Origin: Psychromonas sp.
GTDB lineage: Bacteria > Pseudomonadota > Gammaproteobacteria > Enterobacterales > Psychromonadaceae
Assembly: GCA_013619145.1 (NCBI GenBank)
Contig: JABXKR010000291.1
Span: 1-44,324, forward strand
DNA: 44,324 nt
Direction: 5' to 3'
Shown piece after piece: positions 598 through 40,302 of this stretch. The first letter of the stretch is position 1; every line of letters begins with the position of its first letter. The position numbers and the translations under genes are program-made. The notes beneath the pieces were generated by a model, which saw only the letters and a list, made by a program, of their open reading frames with translations, did not search any database and was not told the DNA's origin.

Positions 598-1647
598 ATG
601 AAACGATCAACTTCAATAATTGCCAGCACCGTTATCGCATTTTCAATAATTCCATTTGCAACAGTCCAAGCAAAAACGACCACTTTACAAAGCGTTAAAA
701 GCATGTCGGAAATCAGTATTGATGGTATCGCTGATGCGGCCTGGGATAAAGCGCCAGATGTTAAGGTCAAACTTAAGAAACTTCCCTACAAGCCAAATAA
801 TGGTTATGAAGGCATTAAGAAAACAACGGTACAGATGAAATCACTTTATGATGATCAATATGTTTACTTCTTAATGACTTACAAAGATCCTACTTACAGC
901 ATGAACCGCTTTCCATGGATGCAGCAAGAAGACGGCAGCTGGAAACAGCTGGCAAATAAAGATGATACCGGTCACGACAATACTTATTACGAAGATAAAT
1001 TCGCTATCCTTTGGGATATCAATAGCGACGGATTCGCAGAAAAAGGCTGTAATGCGGCCTGTCATCGTGCTGATGACGGCAAAGTAAATGGTATAAAAAC
1101 AAAATCTCCGGCACGTAAATATACCAAGCCAGGGCAAACTATCGATATGTGGCACTGGAAAGGTGTACGTACCAACCCGAATGGGCAAATTGATGATCAA
1201 TATATCGACAGCAATACGGATCCGGATAAGAATAAAGGCTGGGGACGAAAAGGTGATCATAAAACAGGTGGCGGTTACGTAAACAACGTAGAAAACAAAC
1301 AGCCTAAGTTCGTTGCTCCTATGCTTACAGAAGATAGTGTGGTTATCTTTGATGCAGAGAAACAGCCGTTCACTGCTGATTACAGTAAAACCAAACGCAT
1401 CCCCGGCATTGTCACTAAGCCGTTTAGCGGTTCTCGCGGTGATATTGCCACCGTCGGCGTCTGGAAAGATGGAGTCTGGACACTTGAAATTAAACGTAAA
1501 TTAGTGACGAAAGGTGAACATGCGGCAACTCAAGATGTACAGTTTGATGATATGAGTAAAGTATATCCATTCGGTGTCGCTGTATTTGACAATACGCAAA
1601 TTAATCACATATTCCACCGTGGTGTGCTGAATTTAGAATTCAAATAA
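598..1647 (+). CDS. Periplasmic ethylbenzene dehydrogenase-related (EB_dh/cytochrome c-552-like) heme-binding protein
   Basis: 349 aa with signal peptide (MKRSTSIIASTVIAFSIIPFATVQA). Fold-like features: 'ISIDGIADAAWDKAP', 'VYFLMTYKDPTYS', 'DKFAILWDIN...GCNAACH', 'DMWHWKGVRTNP', 'GVWTLEIKRKL'. CX3CH heme motif. Confidence 0.75.
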   Translation: MKRSTSIIASTVIAFSIIPFATVQAKTTTLQSVKSMSEISIDGIADAAWDKAPDVKVKLKKLPYKPNNGYEGIKKTTVQMKSLYDDQYVYFLMTYKDPTYSMNRFPWMQQEDGSWKQLANKDDTGHDNTYYEDKFAILWDINSDGFAEKGCNAACHRADDGKVNGIKTKSPARKYTKPGQTIDMWHWKGVRTNPNGQIDDQYIDSNTDPDKNKGWGRKGDHKTGGGYVNNVENKQPKFVAPMLTEDSVVIFDAEKQPFTADYSKTKRIPGIVTKPFSGSRGDIATVGVWKDGVWTLEIKRKLVTKGEHAATQDVQFDDMSKVYPFGVAVFDNTQINHIFHRGVLNLEFK

Positions 1648-1677
1648 CATCTACCATTTTGTCAGTTAGTTGTAAGC

Positions 1678-1710
1678 AAAATACCAGTTGGAAGATCCAA
1701 CTGGTATTTT
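1678..1710 (+). terminator. Rho-independent terminator after the EB_dh-like gene
   Basis: Perfect 15-bp inverted repeat AAAATACCAGTTGGA-AGA-TCCAACTGGTATTTT. Confidence 0.8.
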
Positions 1711-1828
1711 ATATATAAATGAAGATACATATTCACTAACAATCTCTTCCTGATTTTCATAAGCAAGGCGCTTTGAGGCATCAAAGCTAATCCGAGATAG
1801 ACTTAATACCTAGATAAAAAGAGAAATT

Positions 1829-2407
1829 ATGAGACAACTGCAGCGGACGCTAATTTTCACTTTTATCAGTTTATGTTTGCTAAGCCAGCCTGGTTTTGCG
1901 AACAGTAGTGCAAGCGGCGCAGCACCAACCAGAGTCGTTGTTGAGCCTAGTTTCTCACTGCAAACTGCAAATGATAAAGAGATGGAAAAGCTGCTCAAGG
2001 AAAACAAACGCTGTATCCGCTGCCATAAAGTAAAGCGCAAGCTAAAAAACATTGCAGCGATGAAAATGCAAGGCGCTCATGCCAGCGAGGAATTTTATAA
2101 TAACTGCACGGCATGCCATGGTGACAAAGGTAAACATCCAAAAAATGGCTCAACTATTATTAACTTTTCTGTGCAATCACCAACCCCATTAAAGCAGCAA
2201 AATGGTCAATGTATAGCATGTCATACTCCTGCTGAGCTCCGCCAAGCTGAATGGACACACGATGTACACTATAAAAAAATAAACTGTTCCTCTTGCCATC
2301 AATTACATGAGCCAGTTGATCCGGTCATTAATATTAACCGCACAGCACGGATCAAACTTTGTATTGATTGCCACAGTTCGGTAGACAAGCCGCAAGGAGA
2401 TCAATAA
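1829..2407 (+). CDS. nrfB: NrfB-like pentaheme cytochrome c
   Basis: 192 aa with signal peptide and five CXXCH motifs (CIRCH, CTACH, CIACH, CSSCH, CIDCH). Spacing and tail resemble NrfB ('WTHDVHYKKINCSSCHQLH', 'RIKLCIDCHS'). Confidence 0.85.
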   Translation: MRQLQRTLIFTFISLCLLSQPGFANSSASGAAPTRVVVEPSFSLQTANDKEMEKLLKENKRCIRCHKVKRKLKNIAAMKMQGAHASEEFYNNCTACHGDKGKHPKNGSTIINFSVQSPTPLKQQNGQCIACHTPAELRQAEWTHDVHYKKINCSSCHQLHEPVDPVININRTARIKLCIDCHSSVDKPQGDQ

Positions 2408-3084
2408 TGGAGCATTCAAGAAGAAAGTTTTTAGCCGGTCTTGCTGCCACAACGATGTTTGCAACCGTAGGTGTTGCTGGCACCACTGTTATACAGACCA
2501 TAACCGTTGACGGTAAACGCTATGCCATGATCCACGATGAAACGCTGTGCATTGGTTGTGAAGCATGCGTAGATGCTTGTCGGGAAACAAATAATGTCCC
2601 AGAAGGAGTAAGTCGTTTGGAAATTATTCGCAGTGAGCCCCGTGGCGAATTTCCAGATGCAGACTACAAGTTTTTTAGGAAATCTTGCCAGCATTGTGAA
2701 GATGCACCTTGCGTTAATGTTTGCCCGACTGGCGCATCTTTTATTGATACTGAAACGGGAATTGTTGATGTAGATCCGGATCGTTGCGTAGGCTGCATGT
2801 ACTGCATTGCAGCCTGTCCATACAAGGTTCGTTATATTGATCCGGTAACTAAATCAGCTGATAAGTGTGATTTTTGTCGTAAGACTAATCTCGCCAAAGG
2901 TCAGTTACCCGCATGTGTTCAGGTTTGCCCTACGCAGGCACTAATCTTTGGGGATCTCAATGATCCAAACAGCGATATCGTTCAAACTCTGCAGCAGAAA
3001 ACCGTTTATCGCTATAAAAAACATTTGGGCACCAAACCGAAAATGTTTCGGGTACCGGACTTAAAAGGGGAGATTGAGTTATGA
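2407..3084 (+). CDS. nrfC: NrfC-like 4Fe-4S ferredoxin subunit
   Basis: The ATG at 2407 overlaps the nrfB stop (TAATG). Tat-like SRRKFLAG leader. Strong match to NrfC motifs (HDETLCIGCEACVDACRETNNVPEGVSRLEIIRSEP..FFRKSCQHCEDAPCVNVCPTGAS). Confidence 0.92.
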   Translation: MEHSRRKFLAGLAATTMFATVGVAGTTVIQTITVDGKRYAMIHDETLCIGCEACVDACRETNNVPEGVSRLEIIRSEPRGEFPDADYKFFRKSCQHCEDAPCVNVCPTGASFIDTETGIVDVDPDRCVGCMYCIAACPYKVRYIDPVTKSADKCDFCRKTNLAKGQLPACVQVCPTQALIFGDLNDPNSDIVQTLQQKTVYRYKKHLGTKPKMFRVPDLKGEIEL

Positions 3085-4067
3085 TGGAAAGTCTGCATCA
3101 CGCCCTGCATTTTGATTCCCTTGTATGGCATTGGCCTATCGCGGTTTATCTGTTTGTACTAGGTATCTCTTCTGGAGCAATGTGTTTGGCTTTAGTCATT
3201 AAGTGGAAACTGTCAGCGCAGGAAAGCGCAGCAAAAAATCCACTGATTATTGCTGCGGCAATTCTTGTTCCGAGCATGGTCATTTTGGGTCTGCTTATCC
3301 TGATTGTCGATTTAACCAAACCGCTTGATTTTTGGAAGGTGATTTTTTATCAGTTTGCCAACCCTAAATCGGTGATGGGACGCGGAGTTACCCTGTTTTT
3401 ACTCTATCAAATCGCAACATTTGCCTGGATAGCCATAGTGTTTAGAGAAGAGTTAATGGCACTTATTAATCGTTTTATGCCTTGGCTGCTGAAAACACCG
3501 GGCGTTTTATGGTTATGGAATACAATAGACAAAATTGAAAAGCCACTTGAAATATCAATTGCAATACTCGCCGTTCTGCTTGGGGTATACACAGGTTTCC
3601 TGCTTTCAGCGTTAACGGCATATCCATTACTTAACCAGCCTGTATTACCCTTACTGTTCTTGGCCTCTGGTTTGTCTTCAGGTATCGCGGCAACCATCAT
3701 TTTAGCTGCAATCCTATTCTCTGCTAAAGCAGATACTTTTGGTATGGCCTTAAGTCATCGTTTAGAACAACCGATTGCCTGGGCCGAGTTAGCTTTACTG
3801 ATGATATTAATTATTGGTATGAACTTTGGGGGAGAAATGGACAAACTGGCTATAGAGGCGGCTTTCTGGGGCGGCTTTTGGGCAAATCTGTTTTGGATTG
3901 CTGTCGTGGGTATTGGTCTGTTTTTACCTCTGCTTATGAATCAACTTGCCAGTGTTAAACTCAAACACTGCAATACTTTCATACTGAGCAGTGCCATTTT
4001 GACCCTGATTGGCGTGTTCTCATTGCGAATGTTCATTCTATATGCAGGGCAGATGACACCAGCCTAG
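3081..4067 (+). CDS. nrfD: NrfD-like integral membrane quinol-oxidising subunit
   Basis: Start overlaps the nrfC end. Multi-TM protein with NrfD signatures (FDSLVWHWPIAVYLFVLGISSGAM, AVLLGVYTGFLLSALTAYPLLNQPVLPLLFLASGLSSG, LRMFILYAGQ). Confidence 0.92.
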   Translation: MMESLHHALHFDSLVWHWPIAVYLFVLGISSGAMCLALVIKWKLSAQESAAKNPLIIAAAILVPSMVILGLLILIVDLTKPLDFWKVIFYQFANPKSVMGRGVTLFLLYQIATFAWIAIVFREELMALINRFMPWLLKTPGVLWLWNTIDKIEKPLEISIAILAVLLGVYTGFLLSALTAYPLLNQPVLPLLFLASGLSSGIAATIILAAILFSAKADTFGMALSHRLEQPIAWAELALLMILIIGMNFGGEMDKLAIEAAFWGGFWANLFWIAVVGIGLFLPLLMNQLASVKLKHCNTFILSSAILTLIGVFSLRMFILYAGQMTPA

Positions 4068-4102
4068 AGACTCAATGACTGATAATTCATGGAACTTATA
4101 TT

Positions 4103-4480
4103 ATGAAACTATTAAAAACCATATTACTTACTTTTATTCTCTGCCTGACAACTAGTAGCCGGGCAGAAGATTTACCTAATCCCAAAGCTGATAATCTGGC
4201 AAATTTTCATCTTAAAGATCAGGATTGTGCTGGGGGATGCCATAAAAAAGAGGGACCTTCAGAGGAACTTGAATTTGAAAATAAAAGTTGTGTTGAATGC
4301 CATGACGAATTCGGGATACTTGAGGGTAAGCAGCACAATGTGAAGCACCGAGATGAGGAAGATATGCCCTGTATCGAATGCCATATGCCGCATGAAGAAA
4401 CTAAACCCGAAGAGCTATGTGCAGACTGTCATGAGCCAGATCATGCAGCATTTGATGATTTATTCAAGCTTAAGAAATAA
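4103..4480 (+). CDS. Stand-alone tetraheme cytochrome c resembling the N-terminal heme domain of flavocytochrome c fumarate reductase (Fcc3)
   Basis: 125 aa with signal peptide. Hemes: CAGGCH (CX3CH), CVECH, CIECH, CADCH. 'ADNLANFH...C..CH......LEFENKSCVECH' parallels the Shewanella Fcc3 heme domain. Confidence 0.8.
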   Translation: MKLLKTILLTFILCLTTSSRAEDLPNPKADNLANFHLKDQDCAGGCHKKEGPSEELEFENKSCVECHDEFGILEGKQHNVKHRDEEDMPCIECHMPHEETKPEELCADCHEPDHAAFDDLFKLKK

Positions 4481-11960: not shown

Positions 11961-14900
11961 TTATTTCTCTTCAAAATAACTATAAATTCGCCGTGGCATC
12001 AGATCTGTTTGAGTATCAACGGTGCCAGTATGGATCACCTCTTCCTCTTTAGTATCTTCATTAATCATGGTGATTTTATCGCCCTGACCAACACCGAGCA
12101 GACGGATCACGCTATTACCATCTTCATCAGCACCAGCATGAATAACTAATGAATCCGGTACGCGGGAGCCAATATCGATTTTAGGCTCTGGTTCACCGTT
12201 CTCATCAGTAAATCGACTTTGCCCGGAGTGCAAATCAACCGCATATAACCAGCCCGTTCCTAAATCCCCTACACCACAGCCAATATTAACCGTCGAGTTG
12301 GGAACAAAAGAGGTAAAATACACTGTGCCTTCTAACACGGCACCTTGCCCCAGTGATTTTTCACCTATCGATGTAAAGCGATATTGCCACCCAGACAGAT
12401 TACTCATATCCGCAAACACATTTAGTACTTGTTCACCTGAATATGAACCAACGGGATCGCTGGTAATATCGTAAAGATTATTAACGGTAAGCGATGCAGG
12501 TTTTGCAGGGAAGCCATCTTCACCAAACAGTGTCGGCGTTATTGCATAATCATGTAACAGGTAAAAAGCGTCATCAACAGCTATACTCGAAGCGGGATGA
12601 GCGCGATCACCTGAGCCGAATAAAATGCCATCATATGGCACTTTATTATATGAAAACTGTGCATCGTCACTTTTGATTACATTATTTTCAAAGGTACGCA
12701 CAATAACGGGGGCGGTAAAGAAACGTCGATCTGTACTCGCAGTATCCCCCCCTAAACTCGCCAACTTAATTATTGACCATTTACTCGTATCACTGCCCGC
12801 TAAATCCATACGCCATACATTGCCACCCGTATCCCCTGTATATATACGGTCAATATATCCATCGTCATCACTATCTAATATCCCCACCTGGCTTGGGATA
12901 CTATCGCGAATACAGTGTTTATCATCGGCTGCACAACTTGCACCATCAATCGACCAGATTTTATCCCCGGTTAGAGCATCAACGATATATACAGCGCGCC
13001 CCGTTACATCATTACATGTCTCACTATCAGATGGTGTACAGCTGTCTTTATTAGTATCGTAACCTCCACCAAACACTAAACCAGGGTTAACCGTTGCGAC
13101 ACTACCGACGTTGTAGGAGAAGGTACCGACACTTGGCATTGACCAGGTCTGTGCTAATTCACTAAAACCTGTGCTACTTGAATCAATTTTCCACGCAAGT
13201 GTAGGTGAATCAGGGCTTGTTATATCTAATGCGTAATAACTACTACCACCACGGCGCATACCTACAATCGCAATAATTTTCTGTACTGAACCTGACTGAT
13301 AGACTTTAATTGCAATCGGGGATAGATCCATACCGTATTGATGCACACTTGAATCAGGTGCATCTCTTAAGGAAAGCCCTGAGGCTAATAGTTGTGCCGG
13401 AATAAATGCCCAATTTTCAGTGACGGTATCACCGTTATCGGTAAACAGATGTAAAAATCCTGCATTTGTGCCCACCAATAGGCGTACCACTTGTTTTCCG
13501 CTTTCAACATAAGTAATAGCTAATGGTTTGGAATGCAGAGGATCGGCAAAAATATCACTACGATAATCGGTGACTTCACTATTACCGTTTTGATCATCAA
13601 CATCCAACCCTTTTAACCAATTCAGATACTCACTCAAATCAGCTTCAGCAACGCCTAATTCCAGAGAAAGCTCCGCATCAGTTGTTAAGCCATAATAAGT
13701 TTTAAGATTTGCTACGTTTGGCTCTAACAGCGCACTAGCACTTAAATCAGTTAATATTTTACGCGTAGTGACATCTCCTAACATAGCTGCAATGCCGCCT
13801 TCGGCAACCGCATTACCATCTTGAACGCCTCCCCAATACGTTGAAGCATCATCTTTGATATTACCATCGGCATTTATCGCCGGTACCCCTAAACTATCAA
13901 CCAATATTCCAGATGCATTCATGGTCAATTTTTTAATATTTCCTTGCCAGACTGATTTATTGCTTGGCATAAACATAGAGTAATAAACTGAATCTAAACT
14001 ACGCGTTCTATCGAAGTTATTATTGGCTATCGCAGGAGAAGACAAACTAGATGAGCTATTTAAAATATCTAAAATAGTTGCCTGAAATGCTTTTTGCAAT
14101 GCAGTCGAACTGGTCGCAGGGTAATATTCACCTCCCCCCCTCACCGCTGTTTCAGTCAATAATTTACCTGCGCTATCAACCGCACTTTGACCAAATCCAA
14201 TGGTATAGGTGGTGACATGTTGCGCGCCATTGCTTGCATCACCATCAATATCAAAGTTATTCATCCACTCCGTTAGAGTCGGCATATAACTACCTTCGAT
14301 TGCTCCCTTTCCGGTAAGCGTTGCCACTAATGAATTTGCTGCACCATCATTGGTTGGTTGCCCATCGGTCATTAAAATAACGTAAGAACGTTCCTGACAA
14401 GCTTTAAATGGCGAGAGGTAAACTCCGCCATCTTCTGCGCTGATATCGCGCGCAGGTGTTGAAGTTGAATCATCATCTCCGTAATACACCGCTTTCCCCG
14501 CATAATAACGGTATGTTTCATACATACTTTCACAAAGCGGCGTCCAACCAGCGGCATTGAGGTTATTTACTTTATTGATAAGATCTTGTGTTTGCGTTGA
14601 GTCTCGAGTCATTACTTTATCAACAATACGCCCACCATTTTTGTCACTCGAAGTATCACCACTATTGTTGTTGAACACTTCTAAACCAAAATCTACTGAT
14701 GGAGTGCTTTTAATTAAACTGGCAATCGCTTCTTTAGCGATCACTAAACGACTTTTACTGGTCACACCAACCGTGTTATACCAGTAGATGTAATTGCCTG
14801 AATATAAAGTAACCGCATCACTACCAGAAAATACATTGTTAACTGTTGCTATATAGGGGCCTGAACGACCATCTTGTGGAAAACCTAGATTATTTGTAGT

Positions 14901-15374
14901 TGCCGGGTTACTCGGATCTGCATTTAAAACATCTTCTTTACACTCAAAATAATCACCGCTATTACCGGATAAAGTTTTCCAGCGAGAACGGGAGCTTCTT
15001 CTATTTGGCACCCAACGTCGAACATTACCGTTATATAACCCGTCAGAATCAAGCAGCGCTAGAGATGCCTGACAGTTATTTTTATTAGTTGCAAAATACT
15101 GGCTACTGCCGGTGCTGGGAGTATCTCCGCCAACTTTTGTCCAATAAATTTTATTGGCATTTCCTCCGGCACCATAATCATGACTAGGAACGTACGGTTC
15201 AAGTACAACTTCCTCTGAACTACGCATACTCCCGGAAGTATCAAAAATAATCAGCACCTGCGGACGTATCCCATTTTGCGCACTGAGATCTGCAACAAAA
15301 AGCTCCGTATCATCCGCGACTGCAACTGCGCAAAACAGGCTCAACAAGCCTATTGAAAATCGTTTTAATAACAT
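11961..15374 (-). CDS. pilY1: PilY1-family type IV pilus tip adhesin (unit 1)
   Basis: VWA-like MIDAS 'VLIIFDTSGSM', 'VILMTDGQPT', C-terminal beta-propeller, Ca-binding-like loop 'DSDDDGYIDRIYTGDTGGNVWRMDL'. MLLKRFSIGLLSLF at 15374 is the likely start (ORF extends to 15407). Confidence 0.9.
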   Translation of the reverse strand: MLLKRFSIGLLSLFCAVAVADDTELFVADLSAQNGIRPQVLIIFDTSGSMRSSEEVVLEPYVPSHDYGAGGNANKIYWTKVGGDTPSTGSSQYFATNKNNCQASLALLDSDGLYNGNVRRWVPNRRSSRSRWKTLSGNSGDYFECKEDVLNADPSNPATTNNLGFPQDGRSGPYIATVNNVFSGSDAVTLYSGNYIYWYNTVGVTSKSRLVIAKEAIASLIKSTPSVDFGLEVFNNNSGDTSSDKNGGRIVDKVMTRDSTQTQDLINKVNNLNAAGWTPLCESMYETYRYYAGKAVYYGDDDSTSTPARDISAEDGGVYLSPFKACQERSYVILMTDGQPTNDGAANSLVATLTGKGAIEGSYMPTLTEWMNNFDIDGDASNGAQHVTTYTIGFGQSAVDSAGKLLTETAVRGGGEYYPATSSTALQKAFQATILDILNSSSSLSSPAIANNNFDRTRSLDSVYYSMFMPSNKSVWQGNIKKLTMNASGILVDSLGVPAINADGNIKDDASTYWGGVQDGNAVAEGGIAAMLGDVTTRKILTDLSASALLEPNVANLKTYYGLTTDAELSLELGVAEADLSEYLNWLKGLDVDDQNGNSEVTDYRSDIFADPLHSKPLAITYVESGKQVVRLLVGTNAGFLHLFTDNGDTVTENWAFIPAQLLASGLSLRDAPDSSVHQYGMDLSPIAIKVYQSGSVQKIIAIVGMRRGGSSYYALDITSPDSPTLAWKIDSSSTGFSELAQTWSMPSVGTFSYNVGSVATVNPGLVFGGGYDTNKDSCTPSDSETCNDVTGRAVYIVDALTGDKIWSIDGASCAADDKHCIRDSIPSQVGILDSDDDGYIDRIYTGDTGGNVWRMDLAGSDTSKWSIIKLASLGGDTASTDRRFFTAPVIVRTFENNVIKSDDAQFSYNKVPYDGILFGSGDRAHPASSIAVDDAFYLLHDYAITPTLFGEDGFPAKPASLTVNNLYDITSDPVGSYSGEQVLNVFADMSNLSGWQYRFTSIGEKSLGQGAVLEGTVYFTSFVPNSTVNIGCGVGDLGTGWLYAVDLHSGQSRFTDENGEPEPKIDIGSRVPDSLVIHAGADEDGNSVIRLLGVGQGDKITMINEDTKEEEVIHTGTVDTQTDLMPRRIYSYFEEK

Positions 15375-15430
15375 AATTTTTACTCCATTTGTCTTATCCG
15401 ACAACAATCCTTAAGTCGTTCAATGCACTT

Positions 15431-15880
15431 CTATTCAACAATTATCGGTTGTTCAACCCCGAGCCCCATAGAGTTAAGAGCCCATTTTGCGCCCCCCGCC
15501 ATCTCTCTACCATAGGAATGATTTAAGTTAAGCTGTAGGTATTTACATTTAAACTTAGTACTGCTTGTTTTAATTCTCCGCTTGCAATTCAACTCTCCCT
15601 GCAGGGTCACCGTGCTGCCTACGTCGGTAAATAACGCCGATGAAAAGGTGTCTGAAGAAAGTGCGCCTGCAAATGCTGTCGCACTGTCGGTTTGATGCAA
15701 GATATCGTGCGCCGCACCATTTAAGATGATGTTTGACTTCCCCTGCATCACTCGCGTATCAATTATTTTTAACCCTAAAAAAGAGTTACTCATCACCAGA
15801 ACACCAAGCACTAAAAGTAGCGGCAGAATCAGCATCGCAATAAAGAGAGCTATGCCATTTTGCCTACGTAAACTAATCAT
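15431..15880 (-). CDS. pilX: PilX-like minor pilin (unit 1)
   Basis: RRQNGIALFIAMLILPLLLVLGVLVM N-terminus; position between pilW and pilY1. Confidence 0.8.
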   Translation of the reverse strand: MISLRRQNGIALFIAMLILPLLLVLGVLVMSNSFLGLKIIDTRVMQGKSNIILNGAAHDILHQTDSATAFAGALSSDTFSSALFTDVGSTVTLQGELNCKRRIKTSSTKFKCKYLQLNLNHSYGREMAGGAKWALNSMGLGVEQPIIVE

Positions 15881-16883
15881 CGACCAATACCACGCTGTTT
15901 TGAAAGGTTAATACATGTGAAACCAATTCTCTTTTATAGGCATCACCAGGGGCTGTAAAAGATTCAGTACCTAACTGATAAGTATCTTTATTAATATAAC
16001 CAGGCGTCGTTTTTAAAGCGCGTGCCAGCAGATAAATTTTTATGCCAATTACCCGTCCACTATCCCAATCACTAGCAGTTACTTGCGATGCACCGACAAA
16101 GGCATGAATTGAACCATCTCTTTCGCTGGGAATCAGTTTATCTAACGCAAACATAAACTGCATATTTTCGATCCCTTCAACCAAGACCTCTTCTCTTACC
16201 ATTTTATCTTTTTCAAGACGAATGCGCCGTAATCTTGGAATATCGCCTTCTTTATCTAAATAATAAACATGATGAATATATTGCCAGACAGGTGACACAG
16301 CGCCAGTTGTTAATTCACTGGCATCATCAAGGTAAACGTTTATTCCCGTAGGTTTTATATCCAGGTAGTACCGATCAGATTTAAAACCGCTCGTCTCTGA
16401 TAAACCTCTTGCACGTTTTATTGAGATAAAACCGCTACCAGGAATCAGTGCTGTTGCACTATCGCTATCATTAATGCAGGCCATCTTTAAATTAGCAATA
16501 ACAGTCGGCACTGTTGATGCCCAAAGCTGACGATATTTACCAGATGCGGGAAAGGTGCCACTGCTAATATCATCAATACAATCAAGGCTTGTTGCTAATG
16601 CCGCGCCATTGAGCTCCCATAAATCTTTATTTTCGCCTGTTGTCTGCGCAAAAAAATAAGCTTGTTTTAAGTCGCGCGTTAAAATCTGCAATGCGAACGA
16701 TGCATTTTCCTGACGTTCGCCACTGCTTAAAGATTCTGTTGTCGCCCGCTGGCTGGAAACAAAAATAGTTAACAGGCCTGCGGTTAAAAATAGACCAAGA
16801 AAAATAACAATCATCCATTCAACAATTGAGTAACCAAGTTGGCTTTTTTTGAGAAGGCAGGGTATTACCGGAGAATGATTCAT
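15873..16883 (-). CDS. pilW: PilW-like minor pilin (unit 1)
   Basis: QLGYSIVEWMIVIFLGLFLTAGLLTIFVSSQRATT; 'HHVYYLDKEGDIPRLRR'; overlaps pilX and pilV. Confidence 0.85.
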   Translation of the reverse strand: MNHSPVIPCLLKKSQLGYSIVEWMIVIFLGLFLTAGLLTIFVSSQRATTESLSSGERQENASFALQILTRDLKQAYFFAQTTGENKDLWELNGAALATSLDCIDDISSGTFPASGKYRQLWASTVPTVIANLKMACINDSDSATALIPGSGFISIKRARGLSETSGFKSDRYYLDIKPTGINVYLDDASELTTGAVSPVWQYIHHVYYLDKEGDIPRLRRIRLEKDKMVREEVLVEGIENMQFMFALDKLIPSERDGSIHAFVGASQVTASDWDSGRVIGIKIYLLARALKTTPGYINKDTYQLGTESFTAPGDAYKRELVSHVLTFQNSVVLVDD

Positions 16884-17452
16884 GATGATTTACCAGTGTA
16901 GGTTTCGACCACTAACTGACGACGGGAGGAGCTTGCCTCTCCACACTTATATGCCAAACTTGCCTGATCACGACCGGCAGCGGCATCTTTACTTTTAACG
17001 GTAGAAAACCAGCTTAAAATAATGGTAGTAACACCTGTGCTGGCAGCTTCAATGCAAGCATCTGCACCTATTAACCCCGTATTATTGCCCGTATCACTAA
17101 CCACATCTGCGCCGATAAATTTCTCTTTCCACTCATACAGATCGTTATTTTTTATATCTTCACCACTACAATTGTCAAAAACCCCACCCGTTCCAATACA
17201 ACTAGGTGCAGACAGATCCGCTTTCATCAGGCTTGCAATGGCATAGTCATTTCCAGCTTCCTGTAACCACAATCGATTTAATTGCATCCGTTCGCTCATA
17301 TCAGCAACAAGAGAATTGGCTAATGTGCGCTGCTGGATCTCCACTGTCGACTTTATCGCAGTAGACTGCATTCCCGCCAAACCCAGCAAACCTAAGGCTA
17401 AAATAAAGCTGCTAATCATAATTTCAATTAAACTAAAACCACGCATTTTCAT
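16880..17452 (-). CDS. pilV: PilV-like minor pilin (unit 1)
   Basis: MRGFSLIEIMISSFILALGLLGLAGMQSTAIKSTVEIQQRTLANSLVADMSERM. Confidence 0.88.
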   Translation of the reverse strand: MKMRGFSLIEIMISSFILALGLLGLAGMQSTAIKSTVEIQQRTLANSLVADMSERMQLNRLWLQEAGNDYAIASLMKADLSAPSCIGTGGVFDNCSGEDIKNNDLYEWKEKFIGADVVSDTGNNTGLIGADACIEAASTGVTTIILSWFSTVKSKDAAAGRDQASLAYKCGEASSSRRQLVVETYTGKSS

Positions 17453-18427: not shown

Positions 18428-21400
18428 TTACCTCTCTTCAAAATAACTATAAATACGCTTTGCTATCATTCCCACCCCGGTATCCTTTGTGCCTGCATTA
18501 ACTGTCTCAGTCTCTTCTGTTTCAGGATCAACAACGACTATTTCATCTCCGGCACCAACCCCTAACAGACGGATAACGCTTTCACCTTTTTCATTAACAC
18601 CCGAGTGAATAACCAGGGCATCCGGCACGCGAGCACCTATCGATTCTTTTGTTTCAGTTAGATGGTTAATACCGGAATGAAGATTAACCGCATATAACCA
18701 CCCCTGGCCAAGGTCACTAATCCCGCAATCGATATTTGTAAGGGAGTTTGGCACAAACGAAGTAAAATAAACCGTGCCTTCCAGTAATGTTGCACGGCCT
18801 AATGATTTCTCACCGGCAGAAGTGAAATTGTATCGCCACCCGGAGCCGCTTGTCAGATCTTTATATGCACTTAAAACATTTTCCCCCTTGTAATTAGTTA
18901 TCGGATCACTGCTGATATTGTACAAATCATTAACCGTTTTAAGGGCCGGCTGGTTCTCCTCACCAAATATTGCAGGATGAATATTATAATCATGAATAAG
19001 ATAGAATGAATTTAAAACAGTCGTATCTGAAGCGGGATTGGCTCTATCACCAGAGCCAATTAATACCCCATCATAGGGGACAGCATTAATTTCAAATCCA
19101 CCATCAATAGAGCCCGTTACCTGGTCAACATAAGTACGCGCAATCACTGGCGCAGTAAAAAAACGTCTGTCAGTTGTAGCAGTATCGCCACCTAACGCGG
19201 CCAGTTTAGTTAGTGCCCACTCTTTCGTATTTGTTCCTTTAAGATCCACACGCCATACATTACCACCAGTATCACCCGCATAGATTCTATCGATATTACC
19301 ATCCGCATCACTGTCCAGCAGGCTAACCTGCGCAGGTATGCTGTCTCGTAGACAGTGTATCTCATCAGTATCACAACTCCCCCCTTCTACTTTCCAGATT
19401 TGAGCACCGGTTTCAGCATTAACGATATAAATAGCCCGCCCTTTTAAGTCATCACAGTTATTATCGGAACTTGGACTGCAAGTATCTTTATTTGTATCGT
19501 ACCCCCCACCAAAGACAATCACTGGCGCCTCAATGGTTGTAGTGCCCGATTGATAAGCCAATTTTCCCGGCGCGGGTACTGACCATGTCTGTCCCAGCTC
19601 AGAAAAACCAGCTGTATCTGAATCAATTTTCCAAAGCAGCGTTGGCGCTGCAGGGGTTTTAACATTTAAAGCATAATAGCTATCCCCTCCCCGACGCATA
19701 CCGGCAATGGCGATGATTTTATCAAGCCCGTCTTCATCATATGTTTTGATAGCCACTGGCGCTAAATCCATACCGTAACTATGGGCTGCCATATCCGCCT
19801 GATCTTTTAATGCAATGCCGTATTGCAGTAACTCATCGGGAATAAATGCCCACTCCTCCTTAACGGAATCACCTTGATCGGTGAACATATGTAAAAACCC
19901 CGCATTGGTTCCCACTAACAAACGCACAACCTGCTCGCCACTTTCAGTGTAGGTGATCGCAAGCGGCGTTGAATGGAGCGGATCGGCAAAAATATCACTG
20001 CGGAAATCAGTTTTACTGTTATCGGCATCTGAATCAGCTACATCAATACCCAATAACCAGTCCAAGCTTGTGTCTAAGTCTGCACTGTCAATAACTAATT
20101 TCCCAGCTAACTCATCATCAGTGCTCACATCACTATAGTAGCTTTTTAAATTAGCCTTTGACGGTTCAATCAGGCTTCCCTCTGTGCCGATATTACTGAG
20201 CACCTTACGGGTAGTCGCGGCACTTAACATAGCAGCCACACCACCTTCATTCACACTATTACCATCCGCAACGCCTCCCCAATAAGTCGAGGCATTTTCT
20301 TTAATATTACCATCTGCATCTATCGCCGGCTGATCGCCGCTGTCAACTATAATCCCGCTGCTGTTCATTTTTAATTTTTTGATATTGCCTTTCCAAACCG
20401 ATTTATTACTGGGGAAAAACATTGAATAATACAATGAGTCTAAACTGCGGGTTCTATCAAAGTTGTTATTTGCAATAGCGGGAGAGGTAAGACTTGAGCT
20501 GTTATTTAAAATGGCCAATATTGTCTCATTGAATGCATTATCAAGGTCTTTTGCACTGGCTGCGGGGAAATATTTACCACCACCTCGCACTGCAGTTTCA
20601 CTTAATAATTGACCTGCATCATCGATCACATCCTGACCAAAACCAATTGTATGAGTAATAATATTTTGCTCACCTAGGATATTACCATTCACATCAGAAT
20701 TATTCATCCACTGCGCAAGTGTTGGCAGATAACTGCCCTCAATAGGGCCATTACCGGTTAATGTTTGAATTCTGCTGTTAGCGCCACTATCTTCGGTGGG
20801 TTCACCGTCGGTCATTAAAATAATATAAGCAAGCTGCTGACAATCTTTACAAGGAGAGTTATAAACTTTATTCGTTTCAGCACTCAAGTCTCGTGAAGGG
20901 GTTGCACTTCCGCCATCATCACCATAATAAACAGCTTCTCCAGCATAATAACGATAAGCTTCATACATAGTTTCAGTAAGAGGAGTCCATGTCTCTGCTT
21001 TTAAACCGTCTATCGTGTTAATTAAGCTTTGTGTTTCCGCTTCCGTTCTTTTCTGCACTTTACCGACGACTCGTCCTCCTGCTGAATGATTAAAAATAAC
21101 TAATCCAAAATCAACCGAGGAGGTACTATTAATCAAATTAGTGATCGCTTCTTTTGCTATTGATATACGACTCTGAGATGAAGTGCCTGTGTTTTCATTC
21201 CAATAAACATAGTCTGCAGAATACAAGGTAACAGCATCATCACCACCAAACACATCATCTCCCTTAGTGGTTGAATAGGCATCAGTATTACCATTTATTG
21301 GGTAACCATCCTGCTCATCTTGATTAGTTGTATAATCATTTACCCAATCCTCTCTACAGTCATATAATGAACCTTGATTTTCACTAAGAGTCTTCCATTT

Positions 21401-21790
21401 TTTTTTATTCGGCTTCCAGCGGCGCACATTACCACTGTATTTGCCCGTTGCCTCAAACGCAGCAACTGATGCAAAACATTTATTTTCAGAAGCCTGCAAA
21501 TAGTTATCACTATTTAAGCTTGGAATTCCATCACCCGATTCTGCCCAATATATTTTAGTTGAACTTGTATACGATTTTGAAGGATCAAACGGGGTAGCGG
21601 CTACCTGCTCGGTGCTTGCCATGCTCCCTGAGTTATCAAACATAATTAGCACCTGGGGACTAATATTCCTTTCTTCACCAATATCAGATACAAACAGTTC
21701 TGTATCATCCGCTTGTAGCGAACCCGCCAATAAAATAAAACTGACGGTCAGGATCCTGCATATTGTCAACATCTTTAATTTACTCCACAA
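18428..21790 (-). CDS. pilY1: PilY1-family type IV pilus tip adhesin (unit 2)
   Basis: 'VLIMFDNSGSM', 'IILMTDGEPTED', 'DSDADGNIDRIYAGDTGGNVWRVDL', ends RIYSYFEER; clear paralog of 11961..15374. Translation may start at an internal Met (e.g. MLTICRILTVSF). Confidence 0.9.
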   Translation of the reverse strand: MWSKLKMLTICRILTVSFILLAGSLQADDTELFVSDIGEERNISPQVLIMFDNSGSMASTEQVAATPFDPSKSYTSSTKIYWAESGDGIPSLNSDNYLQASENKCFASVAAFEATGKYSGNVRRWKPNKKKWKTLSENQGSLYDCREDWVNDYTTNQDEQDGYPINGNTDAYSTTKGDDVFGGDDAVTLYSADYVYWNENTGTSSQSRISIAKEAITNLINSTSSVDFGLVIFNHSAGGRVVGKVQKRTEAETQSLINTIDGLKAETWTPLTETMYEAYRYYAGEAVYYGDDGGSATPSRDLSAETNKVYNSPCKDCQQLAYIILMTDGEPTEDSGANSRIQTLTGNGPIEGSYLPTLAQWMNNSDVNGNILGEQNIITHTIGFGQDVIDDAGQLLSETAVRGGGKYFPAASAKDLDNAFNETILAILNNSSSLTSPAIANNNFDRTRSLDSLYYSMFFPSNKSVWKGNIKKLKMNSSGIIVDSGDQPAIDADGNIKENASTYWGGVADGNSVNEGGVAAMLSAATTRKVLSNIGTEGSLIEPSKANLKSYYSDVSTDDELAGKLVIDSADLDTSLDWLLGIDVADSDADNSKTDFRSDIFADPLHSTPLAITYTESGEQVVRLLVGTNAGFLHMFTDQGDSVKEEWAFIPDELLQYGIALKDQADMAAHSYGMDLAPVAIKTYDEDGLDKIIAIAGMRRGGDSYYALNVKTPAAPTLLWKIDSDTAGFSELGQTWSVPAPGKLAYQSGTTTIEAPVIVFGGGYDTNKDTCSPSSDNNCDDLKGRAIYIVNAETGAQIWKVEGGSCDTDEIHCLRDSIPAQVSLLDSDADGNIDRIYAGDTGGNVWRVDLKGTNTKEWALTKLAALGGDTATTDRRFFTAPVIARTYVDQVTGSIDGGFEINAVPYDGVLIGSGDRANPASDTTVLNSFYLIHDYNIHPAIFGEENQPALKTVNDLYNISSDPITNYKGENVLSAYKDLTSGSGWRYNFTSAGEKSLGRATLLEGTVYFTSFVPNSLTNIDCGISDLGQGWLYAVNLHSGINHLTETKESIGARVPDALVIHSGVNEKGESVIRLLGVGAGDEIVVVDPETEETETVNAGTKDTGVGMIAKRIYSYFEER

Positions 21791-21829
21791 AAATCTAATT
21801 TTCAGTACAAAGAGTTACTGTATTCAAAT

Positions 21830-22276
21830 CTAATTAGCAAGCAGGGGTTGCTCTACACCAAGCCCCATCCTGTTAGTGCCCCACTTTTTGCCATTCGATT
21901 TTTTCCGGCCAAAACTATGGCTGAGCTTTACGTCTAAATACAAACACTTACCATTACCATTGGGGTTGTAATCGCGCCTGCAATCAAGCTCAGCACTGAC
22001 CGAATCAACTACGCTAACAACATCTTCAAATGAATCAGAGCTTAAGACTGTGCCATTGGCTGCACTGGCAAATGGCGTTGCGCTGCCTGCAGATAAAAGG
22101 TCCACAGAAGCTGCATTTAATGTGATATTTGAGCCATCAAGCGAAGCTCTCGCATCTGTCATTTTCAAATCGAGAAATGAACCGCCGAGCAGCATAAGCC
22201 CAAGTACCACAAGAACAGGTAGAATTATCATCGCCACAAACAGGGCAGCACCACTTTGTTTACGCATATTAATCAC
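21830..22276 (-). CDS. pilX: PilX-like minor pilin (unit 2)
   Basis: RKQSGAALFVAMIILPVLVVLGLMLL; C-terminus 'NRMGLGVEQPLL' parallels unit 1 'NSMGLGVEQPII'. Confidence 0.8.
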   Translation of the reverse strand: MINMRKQSGAALFVAMIILPVLVVLGLMLLGGSFLDLKMTDARASLDGSNITLNAASVDLLSAGSATPFASAANGTVLSSDSFEDVVSVVDSVSAELDCRRDYNPNGNGKCLYLDVKLSHSFGRKKSNGKKWGTNRMGLGVEQPLLAN

Positions 22277-23289
22277 CTTGCTCTATTCGGGAACATTAAA
22301 ATACGGGATATGACTTTTCTTTTAAAAGCATCATCAAAAGCAGGGAGAGTGGTATCGCCAAGCTGATATATTTCTTTATTGGTATAACCCGCAGTTTCTT
22401 TTGGGGAGCGCACCAGTAAAAATATTTTCATACCGATGACTCGGCCCGTGTTCCAATCATTGTCTGTCACATTGGCACTGTTTACAAAAGCATGCACAGA
22501 CTGATCCCGGTCAGCGACTGGCAAATCATCAAGTGCAAACATAAACTTCATGTTTTCAATACCTTCCGCAAGAACATCGTCATCTAAAAGCATCTTATTT
22601 TTCTGCAGAGATAAACGTCGTAAGCGCGGGATATTATCTTTTTCATCAAGGTAATAAACATGATGGATATATTCCCATGCAGTAGTCGCAGCAGAAGCGG
22701 TTCCTCCGAGATATACATTTATACCTGCTATATCCGTTTCCAAATAATAGCGTTCAGCATCATAATCAGCGCTAGAAGTGGAGTCTTCATTCAAGCCTCT
22801 TGCCCGTTTTATGGAAATATAATCACTGCCATTTATTAACTCAGTGTCTGCATCATCATCAGAGATACAGCTCATTTTAAAAGTGCCAAGCGCAGACGAT
22901 ACCGTCGAGGCCCATAGCGCACGGTAACCATTGGCACCGGGAAAAGAGCCTGCACTCTTACTGTCTAAACAGTCATTATTGTTTGTTATGGTGGGAATAT
23001 TATTCCATAAATCTTTATTTTCACCCGTTGTTTGTGCGAAAAAGTAACTCTGCTTTAAATCGCGACTTAAAATTTGCATTGAAAATGCGCCGTTTTCCAG
23101 CTGCTCACTGGCGACAAGCGTTTCTGCTGTTAGGCGTTTACTTGAGACAAATACGGTAAAAATCCCAGCAATAACAAACAACGCCAAAACAATTACGACC
23201 ATCAGTTCGACAAGAGAGAATCCTCCTTGCTTGCCAGGTAAAGGCTGGGGATTTATGTCACGCAGCTTAAAGTTAGGAAAAATAATCAT
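22273..23289 (-). CDS. pilW: PilW-like minor pilin (unit 2)
   Basis: QGGFSLVELMVVIVLALFVIAGIFTVFVSSKRLT; 'HHVYYLDEKDNIPRLRRLSL'. Confidence 0.88.
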   Translation of the reverse strand: MIIFPNFKLRDINPQPLPGKQGGFSLVELMVVIVLALFVIAGIFTVFVSSKRLTAETLVASEQLENGAFSMQILSRDLKQSYFFAQTTGENKDLWNNIPTITNNNDCLDSKSAGSFPGANGYRALWASTVSSALGTFKMSCISDDDADTELINGSDYISIKRARGLNEDSTSSADYDAERYYLETDIAGINVYLGGTASAATTAWEYIHHVYYLDEKDNIPRLRRLSLQKNKMLLDDDVLAEGIENMKFMFALDDLPVADRDQSVHAFVNSANVTDNDWNTGRVIGMKIFLLVRSPKETAGYTNKEIYQLGDTTLPAFDDAFKRKVISRILMFPNRAR

Positions 23290-23852
23290 CAGGATTGGCT
23301 AATAAAAGATTGAACAGATATTTGGCGACGATATTTGCCAGATGTGCCACAAGTTGCATAAATACTGCTAGGGGAAGCGTTAGCGGCTGCATCACTGCTC
23401 TTCAATGTAGAAAGCCAAGATAAAACAACGGTAATTTTACCTTTCTCATCAGGCGCGCTTATACAAGCATCGGCATCAATTAAACCATGAGCAGAGTTAT
23501 TATTAACATGGGCAGCAAGCAGTTTCTGCCGCCACTCAAACAGATCGTTTTGTTTAATCTGTTCACCGGTACAATTTGAAAAAGTGCCATCTGTAACACA
23601 TGGGGGAGCCCTTAACTGGGCGGCTTGCAGGCTAGGGGTCGCGTAATCATTTGCGCTGTTTGTTAACCACACATTATTTAACTGCATGCGCTCCGTTATA
23701 TCAACAAGCAGCGAGTTCGCCAACGTTCTTTGTTGTACTTCAGTGACAGATTTAACCGCAACCGACTGCATCCCAGCGAGGCCTAAAATGCCAATTGCTA
23801 AAATAAAACTGCTTATCATTACTTCAAGTAAACTAAACCCCTGCGCTCTCAT
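23289..23852 (-). CDS. pilV: PilV-like minor pilin (unit 2)
   Basis: QGFSLLEVMISSFILAIGILGLAGMQSVAVKSVTEVQQRTLANSLLVDITERM. Confidence 0.88.
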   Translation of the reverse strand: MRAQGFSLLEVMISSFILAIGILGLAGMQSVAVKSVTEVQQRTLANSLLVDITERMQLNNVWLTNSANDYATPSLQAAQLRAPPCVTDGTFSNCTGEQIKQNDLFEWRQKLLAAHVNNNSAHGLIDADACISAPDEKGKITVVLSWLSTLKSSDAAANASPSSIYATCGTSGKYRRQISVQSFISQS

Positions 23853-36735: not shown

Positions 36736-38517
36736 GTGCAGATAATTAAAACAGATGTTGCCATTGTTGGCGCTGGCGGTTCAGGTTTACGAGCCGCTAT
36801 TGAAATTGCAGAAAACCACCCCGATCTCGATATAGCATTAATTTCTAAAGTTTACCCGATGCGCAGCCATACTGTGGCAGCCGAAGGAGGAGCTGCGGGA
36901 GTTGCTCAAGATCATGACTCTCTTGATAACCACTTTAACGATACCGTTTCCGGTGGAGATTGGTTATGTGAACAGGACGTAGTGCAATATTTTGTTGAAA
37001 ATGCAGCCAAACAACTGACTCAGCTTGAGCATTGGGGATGCCCATGGAGCCGTAAAGAGGATGGCTCTATTAACGTACGCGCTTTTGGCGGCATGAAAAT
37101 AGAACGCACCTGGTTTGCTGCCGATAAAAGTGGTTTTCATATTCTGCACACTCTTTTTCAAACTTCACTGCAGCACCCTAAAATAACCCGCTTTGATGAA
37201 CATTTTTGTTTAGATCTGATTGTTGAAAATGACAAAATACAGGGGATTTTAATTCTTGATATTGCCGAAGGTGAGGCAAAACTAATTCAGGCAAAATCAG
37301 TGATTATGGCAACTGGCGGCGCGGGCCGTGTTTATAGTTACAATACCAACGGTGGCATTGTCACAGGTGACGGAATGTCACTCGCTTACCGCCATGGCGT
37401 TCCGCTACGTGATATGGAGTTTATACAATACCATCCAACAGGTTTACCGGGCAGTGGTATTTTAATGACCGAAGGCTGCCGTGGCGAAGGTGGTATTTTA
37501 TTAAATAAAGATGGTTACCGTTATTTACAAGATTACGGTCTAGGGCCTGAAGTCCCCGTAGGGCAGACTAAAAATAAATATATGGAACTTGGCCCACGCG
37601 ACAAACTCAGCCAATGTTTCTGGCAAGAGCAACAAAAGGGCAATGTGATTAAAGGCCCACGTGGTGATGTTGTTCATCTTGATCTTCGCCATTTAGGTGA
37701 AGAAAAAATTAATGAGCGCCTGCCATTTATCCGCGAACTTGCTAAAGCTTATGTTGGTGTTGATCCGGTTCATGAACCAATCCCAGTTCGTCCAACCGTG
37801 CATTACACAATGGGCGGCATAGAAACCGATGCAAAAACAGCGACTAAACTTGCGGGTTTATATGCAATAGGTGAATGTGCTTCGGTTGGTTTACACGGTG
37901 CAAATCGTTTAGGCTCAAACTCATTAACTGAGCTTGCTGTATTTGGTCAGTTAGCCGGACAACAAGCGGCTGATTATGCGCGTAATAGCAAACATGAAAA
38001 AATTACCCCTTTAAGGAAACAAGCCGAAACGATTATGGCTCGTACCGAAGCCCTGCTGCACAGTGAAGGCACGGAAAAAATGGCAGATATTCGCCAAGAG
38101 ATGGGTGACTGCATGGAAGAAGGTGTGGGTATCTATCGCACTAAAGAGTCGATGCAACAAACCATCAATAAACTAGCCGAACTTAAGAAGCGCTATAAAA
38201 ACATCCAAATCACCGATAAATCGAGTGTGTTTAACACGGAGTTTTTATATGCAATTGAACTTGGATACCTGCTCGATACCGCACAAGCGATGGCACACAG
38301 TGCAATTTTACGAGAAGAGTCTCGCGGCTCTCATCAGCGTATTGATGGTTTTGAAAAACGTGATGATAACAACTTCTTAAAACATTCACTGGCCTTTTAT
38401 CAAGGTGATAAAGCACCAAAAATTGATTATTCATCAGTAACTATTACCAAAAGCCAACCCGCAGAAAGGGCATATGGTGCGGCAGGTGAAAAAGCACATG
38501 CGCAGGAGAAAGTTTAA
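36736..38517 (+). CDS. frdA: Fumarate reductase flavoprotein subunit
   Basis: 593 aa; '[17 protein letters not shown]', '[15 protein letters not shown]', '[23 protein letters not shown]', '[13 protein letters not shown]'. Confidence 0.96.
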
Positions 38518-39254
38518 TGAGTGAATTAACGATTGAAATTGATGTGCTTCGTTACCGTCCTGAGATGGATAACGAACCTTTCACGCAAACCTTTGAAGTG
38601 CCTTACACCGCCGAGATGTCCATTTTGGAAGCGCTGCAATATATTAAAGATCACCTAGATAGCACGGTAAGTTTCCGCTGGTCTTGTCGTATGGCGATTT
38701 GTGGTAGCTGTGGTTTGATGGTGAATAGCGTTCCTAAATTAGGCTGCAAAGCATTTCTGCGTGATTATTACCCCCAAAAAATAAGTTTAGAGCCCTTAGC
38801 TAACTTCCCTATTGAACGCGATCTTGTGGTGGTAATGGATGATTTCATTAAAAAATTAGAAGAGATCAAACCCTATATCATCCCGGAAAAAGAGAAATGT
38901 TTATCTGAAGGCACATATCAGCAAACGCCTGAACAGATGGCTAAATTTAAACAGTTTTCAATGTGTATTAACTGCGGTCTTTGTTATGCAGCCTGCCCGC
39001 AATATGCGTTAGACAATAAGTTTACCGGACCTGCGGCCTTGGCATTACTTGCTCGTTACAATCGAGATAGTCGAGATAATGGCGAAGCCGAGCGTATGAA
39101 AATCGTTAACCAGGAAGAAGGGGTTTGGGGCTGTACGTTTGTTGGATATTGTTCCGTTGTTTGTCCAAAAGATGTCGATCCTGCTGCTGCTATTCAACTG
39201 CTTAAAGTTGAAAGCAGTAAAGATTACCTGATTGGTATGTTCAAACCAGATTAA
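38517..39254 (+). CDS. frdB: Fumarate reductase iron-sulfur subunit
   Basis: 245 aa; '[18 protein letters not shown]', '[15 protein letters not shown]', '[16 protein letters not shown]'. Confidence 0.96.
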
Positions 39255-39267
39255 TGAAAAAGTGATA

Positions 39268-39534
39268 AGTAAATGTTAACTTTTCGTATATCTCAACACA
39301 GTTTGAGCACTGTCGTGAAGTAGATAAAGAGGACTAAGCAATGAGTAAACGTAAACCTTATATACGCGAACTGCCAACGGTTTCAATGGCTGGTTGAAAT
39401 ATCATTTTTACTATTTTAGATACTAGTAAATGTTAACTTTTCGTAGCTCTCGACTCTGATTAAGCACTGTCGTGAAGTAGATAAAGAGGACTAAGCAATG
39501 AGTAAACGTAAACCTTATATACGCGAACTGCCAA
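39268..39534. repeat. Direct repeat of the frdC leader and first codons (39268-39377 and 39425-39534, period 157)
   Basis: Two 110-nt copies; the last 72 nt (agcactgtcgtgaag...cgaactgccaa) are identical and include RBS, ATG and 12 codons. Confidence 0.95.
39341..39397 (+). pseudogene. Truncated frdC duplicate (MSKRKPYIRELPTVSMAG*)
   Basis: Identical start to frdC, then frameshifted. In another frame, GGTTTCAATGGCTGGTTGAAA (GFNGWLK) resembles frdC TAFNGWLE, suggesting an internal deletion. Confidence 0.7.
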
Positions 39535-39887
39535 GGGATTGGTGGATGAAACAACTGTTTTATACAAAATATATGATAAGGGAAGGCAGCAGTGTTTTAA
39601 TTACCTTATACAGCCTGATTTTAGCTTGGGGTGTTTTTCGCCTTAGCCAGGGAGAGACCGCTTTTAACGGCTGGCTTGAAGCTTTGCAAAACCCATTTGC
39701 AATTATCCTGCATCTTCTTATGCTGATATTAGCCTTATACCACACAATTACCTGGTTCTCTCTCGCACCTAAAGCGGTTGATTTATGGATAAAAGGTAAA
39801 AAGCTTGATGATAAGGTGATTGTCGCAGCACATTACGGCGCCTTTGCCGTGCTGACTATTTTCTGCTTGTTAATTATTACCCTATAA
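39498..39887 (+). CDS. frdC: Fumarate reductase membrane subunit C
   Basis: 129 aa; 'SKRKPYIRELPRDWWMKQLFYTKYMIREGSSV', 'LALYHTITWFSLAPKAVDL'. Confidence 0.93.
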   Translation: MSKRKPYIRELPRDWWMKQLFYTKYMIREGSSVLITLYSLILAWGVFRLSQGETAFNGWLEALQNPFAIILHLLMLILALYHTITWFSLAPKAVDLWIKGKKLDDKVIVAAHYGAFAVLTIFCLLIITL

Positions 39888-39897
39888 AAGGAGGCTT

Positions 39898-40302
39898 TTG
39901 ATGTCAAAGACCACAGAGAAAACCTATAAACGCTCTCATGAACCCGTTTTTTGGGGCTTATTTGGCGCAGGTGGTATGCTTACTGCGTTTCTTACACCTG
40001 TTATGATCTTAATTACAGGGCTCTTAATTCCACTTGGGATTATAGATCAGCACTACTTTAGTTATGAAAAAATACATGGTTTTGCCACAACATGGTACGG
40101 TTCCGTCATTGTTTTAGTTTTAGTGGCACTGCCCTTCTGGCATACCCTGCACCGAATTTTCCATGCGTTACATGATATCGGCATTAATCGTGGACGTGAT
40201 TGGCAACAAGTGATCTGTTATGGTTTTGCTTTTGCTGTCAGCGTTTTTGTTTTCACTCTTTTATTACAAATGCTAACCGCGCCAAGCTTATTTGGTTTTT
40301 AA
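39898..40302 (+). CDS. frdD: Fumarate reductase membrane subunit D
   Basis: 134 aa; 'RSHEPVFWGLFGAGGMLTAFLTPVMILITGLLIPLG', 'FWHTLHRIFHALHDIGI'. Start may be 39901. Confidence 0.93.
   Translation: MMSKTTEKTYKRSHEPVFWGLFGAGGMLTAFLTPVMILITGLLIPLGIIDQHYFSYEKIHGFATTWYGSVIVLVLVALPFWHTLHRIFHALHDIGINRGRDWQQVICYGFAFAVSVFVFTLLLQMLTAPSLFGF

Follow-up and report, generated by a model that had tools for sequence, protein, structure and literature searches.

The 44,324-nucleotide contig JABXKR010000291.1 of Psychromonas sp. (assembly GCA_013619145.1), analysed here over its whole length and referred to as the window, carries five genes (positions 598-4480) that on balance probably encode a quinol-driven periplasmic electron branch, distinct from nitrite ammonification and with an EB_dh-like heme protein at its acceptor end. 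The five same-strand open reading frames listed in a preliminary description of this DNA were all recovered by reading-frame and profile searches, intact and on the plus strand. The first (598-1647) encodes a secreted EB_dh-like heme protein of 349 amino acids (PF09459, E=1e-41) with a CX3CH motif, the NxrC/EbdC fold and 61 relatives. It is followed by an NrfB-like pentaheme cytochrome of 192 amino acids with five CXXCH motifs (1829-2407; PF22678, E=3e-33), by the four-cluster Fe-S protein NrfC with a twin-arginine leader, RRKF (2407-3084; TIGR03149, 381.5 bits), by the membrane quinol-oxidising subunit NrfD, which belongs to a separate lineage (3081-4067; PF03916, E=5e-73), and by a small tetraheme cytochrome (STC) of the STC/CctA type (4103-4480; PF14537, E=5e-10; best NCBIfam match CctA).

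In the proposed mechanism NrfD would oxidise quinol and NrfC would pass the electrons outward, and the NrfB-like pentaheme and STC-like tetraheme cytochromes would then carry them to the EB_dh-like protein, which would act either as a heme terminal reductase or as the immediate electron donor to the acceptor. The EB_dh-like protein would be a stand-alone member of the EbdC/NxrC fold, lacking a molybdenum subunit and holding a covalent heme, as its CX3CH motif suggests. The direction of electron flow, the order of the carriers, their heme load and the position of EB_dh as the end point are what we infer. The preliminary description had likewise proposed that the quinol-oxidising module may feed a different periplasmic acceptor; this part is supported, with no NrfA found here or in a 99%-complete relative that has the five genes, and its framing of the locus as an nrfBCD module is corrected below.

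The conserved core and its proposed supply of electrons

Gene content, conservation, partner swapping and complementarity with the canonical nrf genes were computed. A scan of named genomes with an EB_dh alignment yielded 61 EB_dh loci in several phyla, whose neighbours were clustered; a search for gene order was also informative, and even sampling across the class for EB_dh and NrfD gained almost nothing. The EB_dh, NrfB-like and STC-like genes are adjacent in seven genomes of three genera (the window strain, Psychromonas sp. MB-3u-54, P. ossibalaenae, three Vibrio and one Photobacterium), EB_dh lying upstream of the other two. The Vibrionaceae loci are compact: gaps of 22-75 bp are followed by contact or overlap, and nrfCD is absent from them. 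P. hadalis holds an eighth locus, from which nrfBCD has been lost and in which the STC-like gene is kept beside a broken EB_dh gene; there (L038 / L026) EB_dh has several stops and frameshifts and the STC-like gene is intact. Intact local nrfCD genes occur in only two of the eight loci, those of the window strain and MB-3u-54. What is conserved is EB_dh-NrfB-STC and not nrfBCD: in all three genera the conservation of EB_dh and tetraheme neighbours anticipated in the preliminary description also takes in the NrfB-like gene, but not nrfBCD as a whole. The NrfB-STC group is a single clade of the EB_dh tree (100/98), set among loci whose partner is a different one. At the P. ossibalaenae locus a deletion has joined the start of nrfC to the end of nrfD, and this scar indicates that the five-gene form is older than P. 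ossibalaenae.

The distribution of nrfCD is complementary to that of canonical nitrite reduction. NrfD is found in four of 24 Psychromonas genomes, exactly those that hold this locus. Where no intact nrfCD is present locally, as in six genomes, both NrfA and a full-length canonical NrfD are encoded elsewhere; the two genomes with a local nrfCD yielded no NrfA. Most simply, the EB_dh-NrfB-STC unit would depend on an NrfCD, which may be either a dedicated or the canonical one; with so small a sample of related species this complementarity is a pattern and not proof. The canonical NrfCD apparently supplies the other six loci in trans, such that the Vibrionaceae and P. ossibalaenae would drive the unit with canonical NrfCD and the window strain and MB-3u-54 would keep a dedicated NrfCD instead. 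Selection at the locus is purifying wherever the synonymous rate (dS) could be estimated, with ratios of nonsynonymous to synonymous rates (dN/dS) of 0.03-0.19; dS for the STC gene is saturated.

The EB_dh-like protein and its partners

The heme motif of the EB_dh-like protein is C-x3-C-H and not CXXCH (C151-N-A-A-C155-H156; 1048-1065, plus strand), a point missed in the preliminary description; this presumed covalent heme site is invariant in 60 of the 60 relatives covering it. Many positions are invariant overall, H156, H186 and H337 among them. The AlphaFold2 model is good (predicted local distance difference test 87.3; predicted template-modelling score 0.86), and its nearest solved structures by Foldseek are NxrC and EbdC (7b04_C, 2ivf_C) and CBM9 modules; by sequence only the match to NxrC is significant (E=4e-5). 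NxrC and EbdC bind heme b through Met and Lys ligands and sit beside molybdenum and Fe-S subunits (PMC8387239). The alignment to NxrC is too weak to place these Met and Lys ligands in EB_dh, and the invariant H156, H186 and H337 together with the CX3CH motif suggest a different, covalent heme arrangement, in which any naming of the ligating residues would be a guess. A type II molybdenum alpha subunit (TIGR03479) scored above the cut-off in none of 18 genomes, the window genome reaching at best 72 of 985 bits, and on this ground EB_dh as a subunit of such an enzyme was rejected.

The tetraheme cytochrome resembles the heme domain of flavocytochrome c3 and CctA in the Protein Data Bank (PDB). 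It has three CXXCH motifs and one CX3CH, the latter at the first heme (CAGGCH; 4226-4243, plus strand); this detail, missed in the preliminary description, is shared by eight of eight orthologues. The solved Shewanella flavocytochrome c3 has CXXCH at the corresponding heme. Against the CctA equivalog NF047727 the protein scores 49.5 bits, the cut-off being 180.

Elsewhere EB_dh is found with other partners. At 35 of the 61 loci a downstream gene encodes a shared domain of ~95 residues with one CXXCH, and a profile built from its small-protein form detects the domain in two larger forms (E from 1e-31 to 1e-38). Three kinds of protein contain this monoheme domain: a small membrane protein, a larger one that has additional hemes and weakly matches cytochrome b, and a flavocytochrome that resembles ferric reductases and has an NAD-binding part. 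In known cases, modules of these families deliver electrons outward from quinol or NAD(P)H. Counted with NrfCD-NrfB-STC, they bring the supply arrangements found with the conserved EB_dh protein to at least four, from which we infer that electrons flow into EB_dh. The commonest partner (e.g. L039 11155-11895, alignment A5) is a membrane protein of ~240 amino acids with one CXXCH and no Pfam match, and the heme domain is poorly modelled in its structure prediction. FNR-like boxes are enriched 5' of EB_dh loci (five perfect boxes where 0.16 would be expected, and 17 boxes with no more than one mismatch where 2.7 would be), which is in line with anaerobic control. Genes like those for heavy-metal efflux of the resistance-nodulation-division type lie less than 10 kb from EB_dh in L053, L071, L075 and L090, which belong to different phyla; these are too few to interpret.

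We put forward more tentatively the broader proposal that the CX3CH EB_dh proteins may be periplasmic terminal reductases of a new family that does without molybdenum, is present in several phyla and is served by interchangeable electron-supply modules. Under this proposal the modules would be NrfCD-NrfB-STC, an octaheme plus cytochrome-b arrangement, an NAD(P)H ferric-reductase type and the small membrane monoheme protein.

Alternative readings

Several observations weigh against a quinol-driven branch that ends at EB_dh. All known occurrences of the EB_dh fold are in electron-transfer subunits, a point in favour of a carrier rather than an enzyme, and the complete five-gene form is present in only two genomes. 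A strong hairpin (1678-1710, plus strand; z=-7.3) splits the EB_dh gene from the nrfB-like gene, so that their co-transcription is not assured. This hairpin is likely a partial terminator or a stabiliser of the mRNA end and, lying 3' of the EB_dh gene, may allow a higher dose of the EB_dh protein; P. ossibalaenae has a weaker one at the corresponding place. Finally, no FNR box with two or fewer mismatches lies 5' of EB_dh in the window, which has there only a different, perfect palindrome, TTTCACTGGTGAAA (470-483, strand unspecified; 128 bp 5' of the EB_dh start). This possible regulator site recurs at the equivalent place in P. ossibalaenae and is absent in MB-3u-54.

Of the alternatives, the one we regard as possible, if doubtful, is that EB_dh is a heme carrier and not an enzyme, feeding other periplasmic reductases or soluble acceptors, with the locus serving as a general periplasmic electron distributor. 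NxrC and EbdC, the nearest to it in fold, act as electron-transfer subunits, and in Shewanella STC-type cytochromes are shuttles (PMC8805035). However, no reductase gene is consistently found beside EB_dh in the 61 loci, and EB_dh, with its many invariant residues, is far larger than a simple carrier.

A second alternative, which we judge improbable, is that the locus is left over from canonical nitrite ammonification or is a variant of it, and that nrfA lies in the unassembled part of the strain's genome and is still served by NrfBCD. As the preliminary description stated, the window holds no NrfA (PF02335), and none was found in the rest of the assembly, a draft of 336 contigs that is 85.6% complete, so that absence there is not proof. 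This incompleteness leaves room for a missing nrfA, and NrfC does reach the cut-off of its equivalog TIGR03149 (381.5 against 377.6 bits). Psychromonas sp. MB-3u-54 (G013), however, carries the same five-gene locus in a 99%-complete genome and likewise has no NrfA. Nor does nrfA lie directly upstream, where the preliminary description had looked for a refutation of its proposal: the window has a chemoreceptor-like tail there, and P. ossibalaenae, whose flank is intact, an unrelated divergent gene. In Psychromonas genomes with NrfA, its own nrfBCD adjoins it; P. hadalis (G004) and P. ossibalaenae (G007) both have NrfA in a separate canonical nrfA-nrfBCD cluster. The local NrfB and NrfD have moreover diverged. 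The NrfB-like protein resembles the solved E. coli NrfB (E=7e-21), is ~25% identical to canonical Psychromonas NrfB and stays below the NrfB equivalog cut-off (129.7 against 184 bits); NrfD narrowly misses that of TIGR03148 (339.5 against 347.6 bits). A broken canonical nrf operon was considered separately and is rejected on account of the intact frames, the low dN/dS and the presence of the same genes in MB-3u-54.

The lineage of NrfD bears on a third alternative, a route of extracellular electron transfer like NetBCD-MtrCAB of Aeromonas, to which we give slightly less credence still. Canonical NrfD proteins of Psychromonas, Vibrio and Photobacterium are mutually 65-99% alike, and the local NrfD is 42-47% identical to them. 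In the NrfD tree it stands on its own long branch, whose exact placement is unsure since long branches meet near it; an NrfD encoded beside two ten-heme cytochrome genes, an arrangement like NetBCD-Mtr, falls in another clade. An extracellular route would fit an NrfBCD-like donor with an STC-like shuttle, and PMC8805035 cites NetBCD of Aeromonas as a divergent NrfBCD used outside nitrite reduction, and hence as a precedent. But no match to MtrB/PioB was found in the Psychromonas, Vibrio and Photobacterium genomes with the locus, in a search without a strong positive control, the NrfB-like protein scores 96.6 bits against a cut-off of 380 for the NetB model (NF049875), and the local NrfD lies outside the NetD branch. 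The NetB score and the position of NrfD in its tree led us to reject membership in NetBCD itself.

The least likely of these readings makes EB_dh a sensor of redox state or gas that serves a two-component system and takes its input from the cytochromes. In its favour, 24 loci have a histidine kinase and a response regulator in the vicinity of EB_dh. No such pair accompanies the NrfB-STC loci, however, and the window has none; those kinases that were sampled are like different subfamilies, and elsewhere EB_dh is constantly partnered by an electron-transfer protein.

Other features of the window

The window is a whole contig that begins, at an assembly end, 597 bp 5' of the EB_dh gene. Positions 1-313 hold the C-terminal stretch of the chemoreceptor-like gene, preceded by in-frame stops, possibly a pseudogene cut by the contig end. 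NrfC starts at the ATG at 2407, overlapping the nrfB stop; this overlap and that between nrfC and nrfD suggest one transcription unit for these three genes. Farther along the contig are two successive type IV pilus clusters on the minus strand (11961-17452 and 18428-23852), each with a PilY1 beta-propeller protein (1148 and 1120 amino acids) and the first with a PilW match, and a set of fumarate reductase genes (36736-40302) for the flavoprotein, the Fe-S protein, FrdC and a further small open reading frame.

Comparison with known systems

We found no description of such a system in the open-access literature, and novelty is judged against that incomplete record. If a quinol-driven branch ending at EB_dh is correct, NrfCD would have parted from nitrite reduction along a different line from NetBCD, and an EB_dh-like protein widespread among marine and sediment bacteria would stand at the end of at least four electron-supply modules. 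This would single out the EB_dh protein as a specific candidate for a respiratory acceptor system that has yet to be described and could be tested in cultured strains.

The locus shares with the E. coli type of NrfABCD the NrfC, NrfD and NrfB-like pentaheme proteins in matching gene order and a presumed flow of electrons from quinol to the periplasm (PMC12285233); it differs in the absence of NrfA, the divergence of its NrfB-like protein, the separate lineage of its NrfD and the presence of EB_dh and STC-like partners. The EB_dh-like protein has the fold of the heme subunits EbdC and NxrC and, for NxrC, a likeness in sequence (E=4e-5), but it lacks a molybdenum alpha subunit, carries CX3CH, is larger and stands beside multiheme cytochromes. 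Like CctA/STC of Shewanella, the last gene product is a small periplasmic tetraheme cytochrome, although its first heme motif is CX3CH and it scores below the CctA cut-off. NetBCD of Aeromonas, which works with MtrCAB, is similarly a diverged NrfBCD set outside nitrite reduction; NetD, however, belongs to another NrfD clade, no Mtr genes were found in the genomes with this locus in the search that had no strong positive control, and the constant neighbour here is EB_dh.

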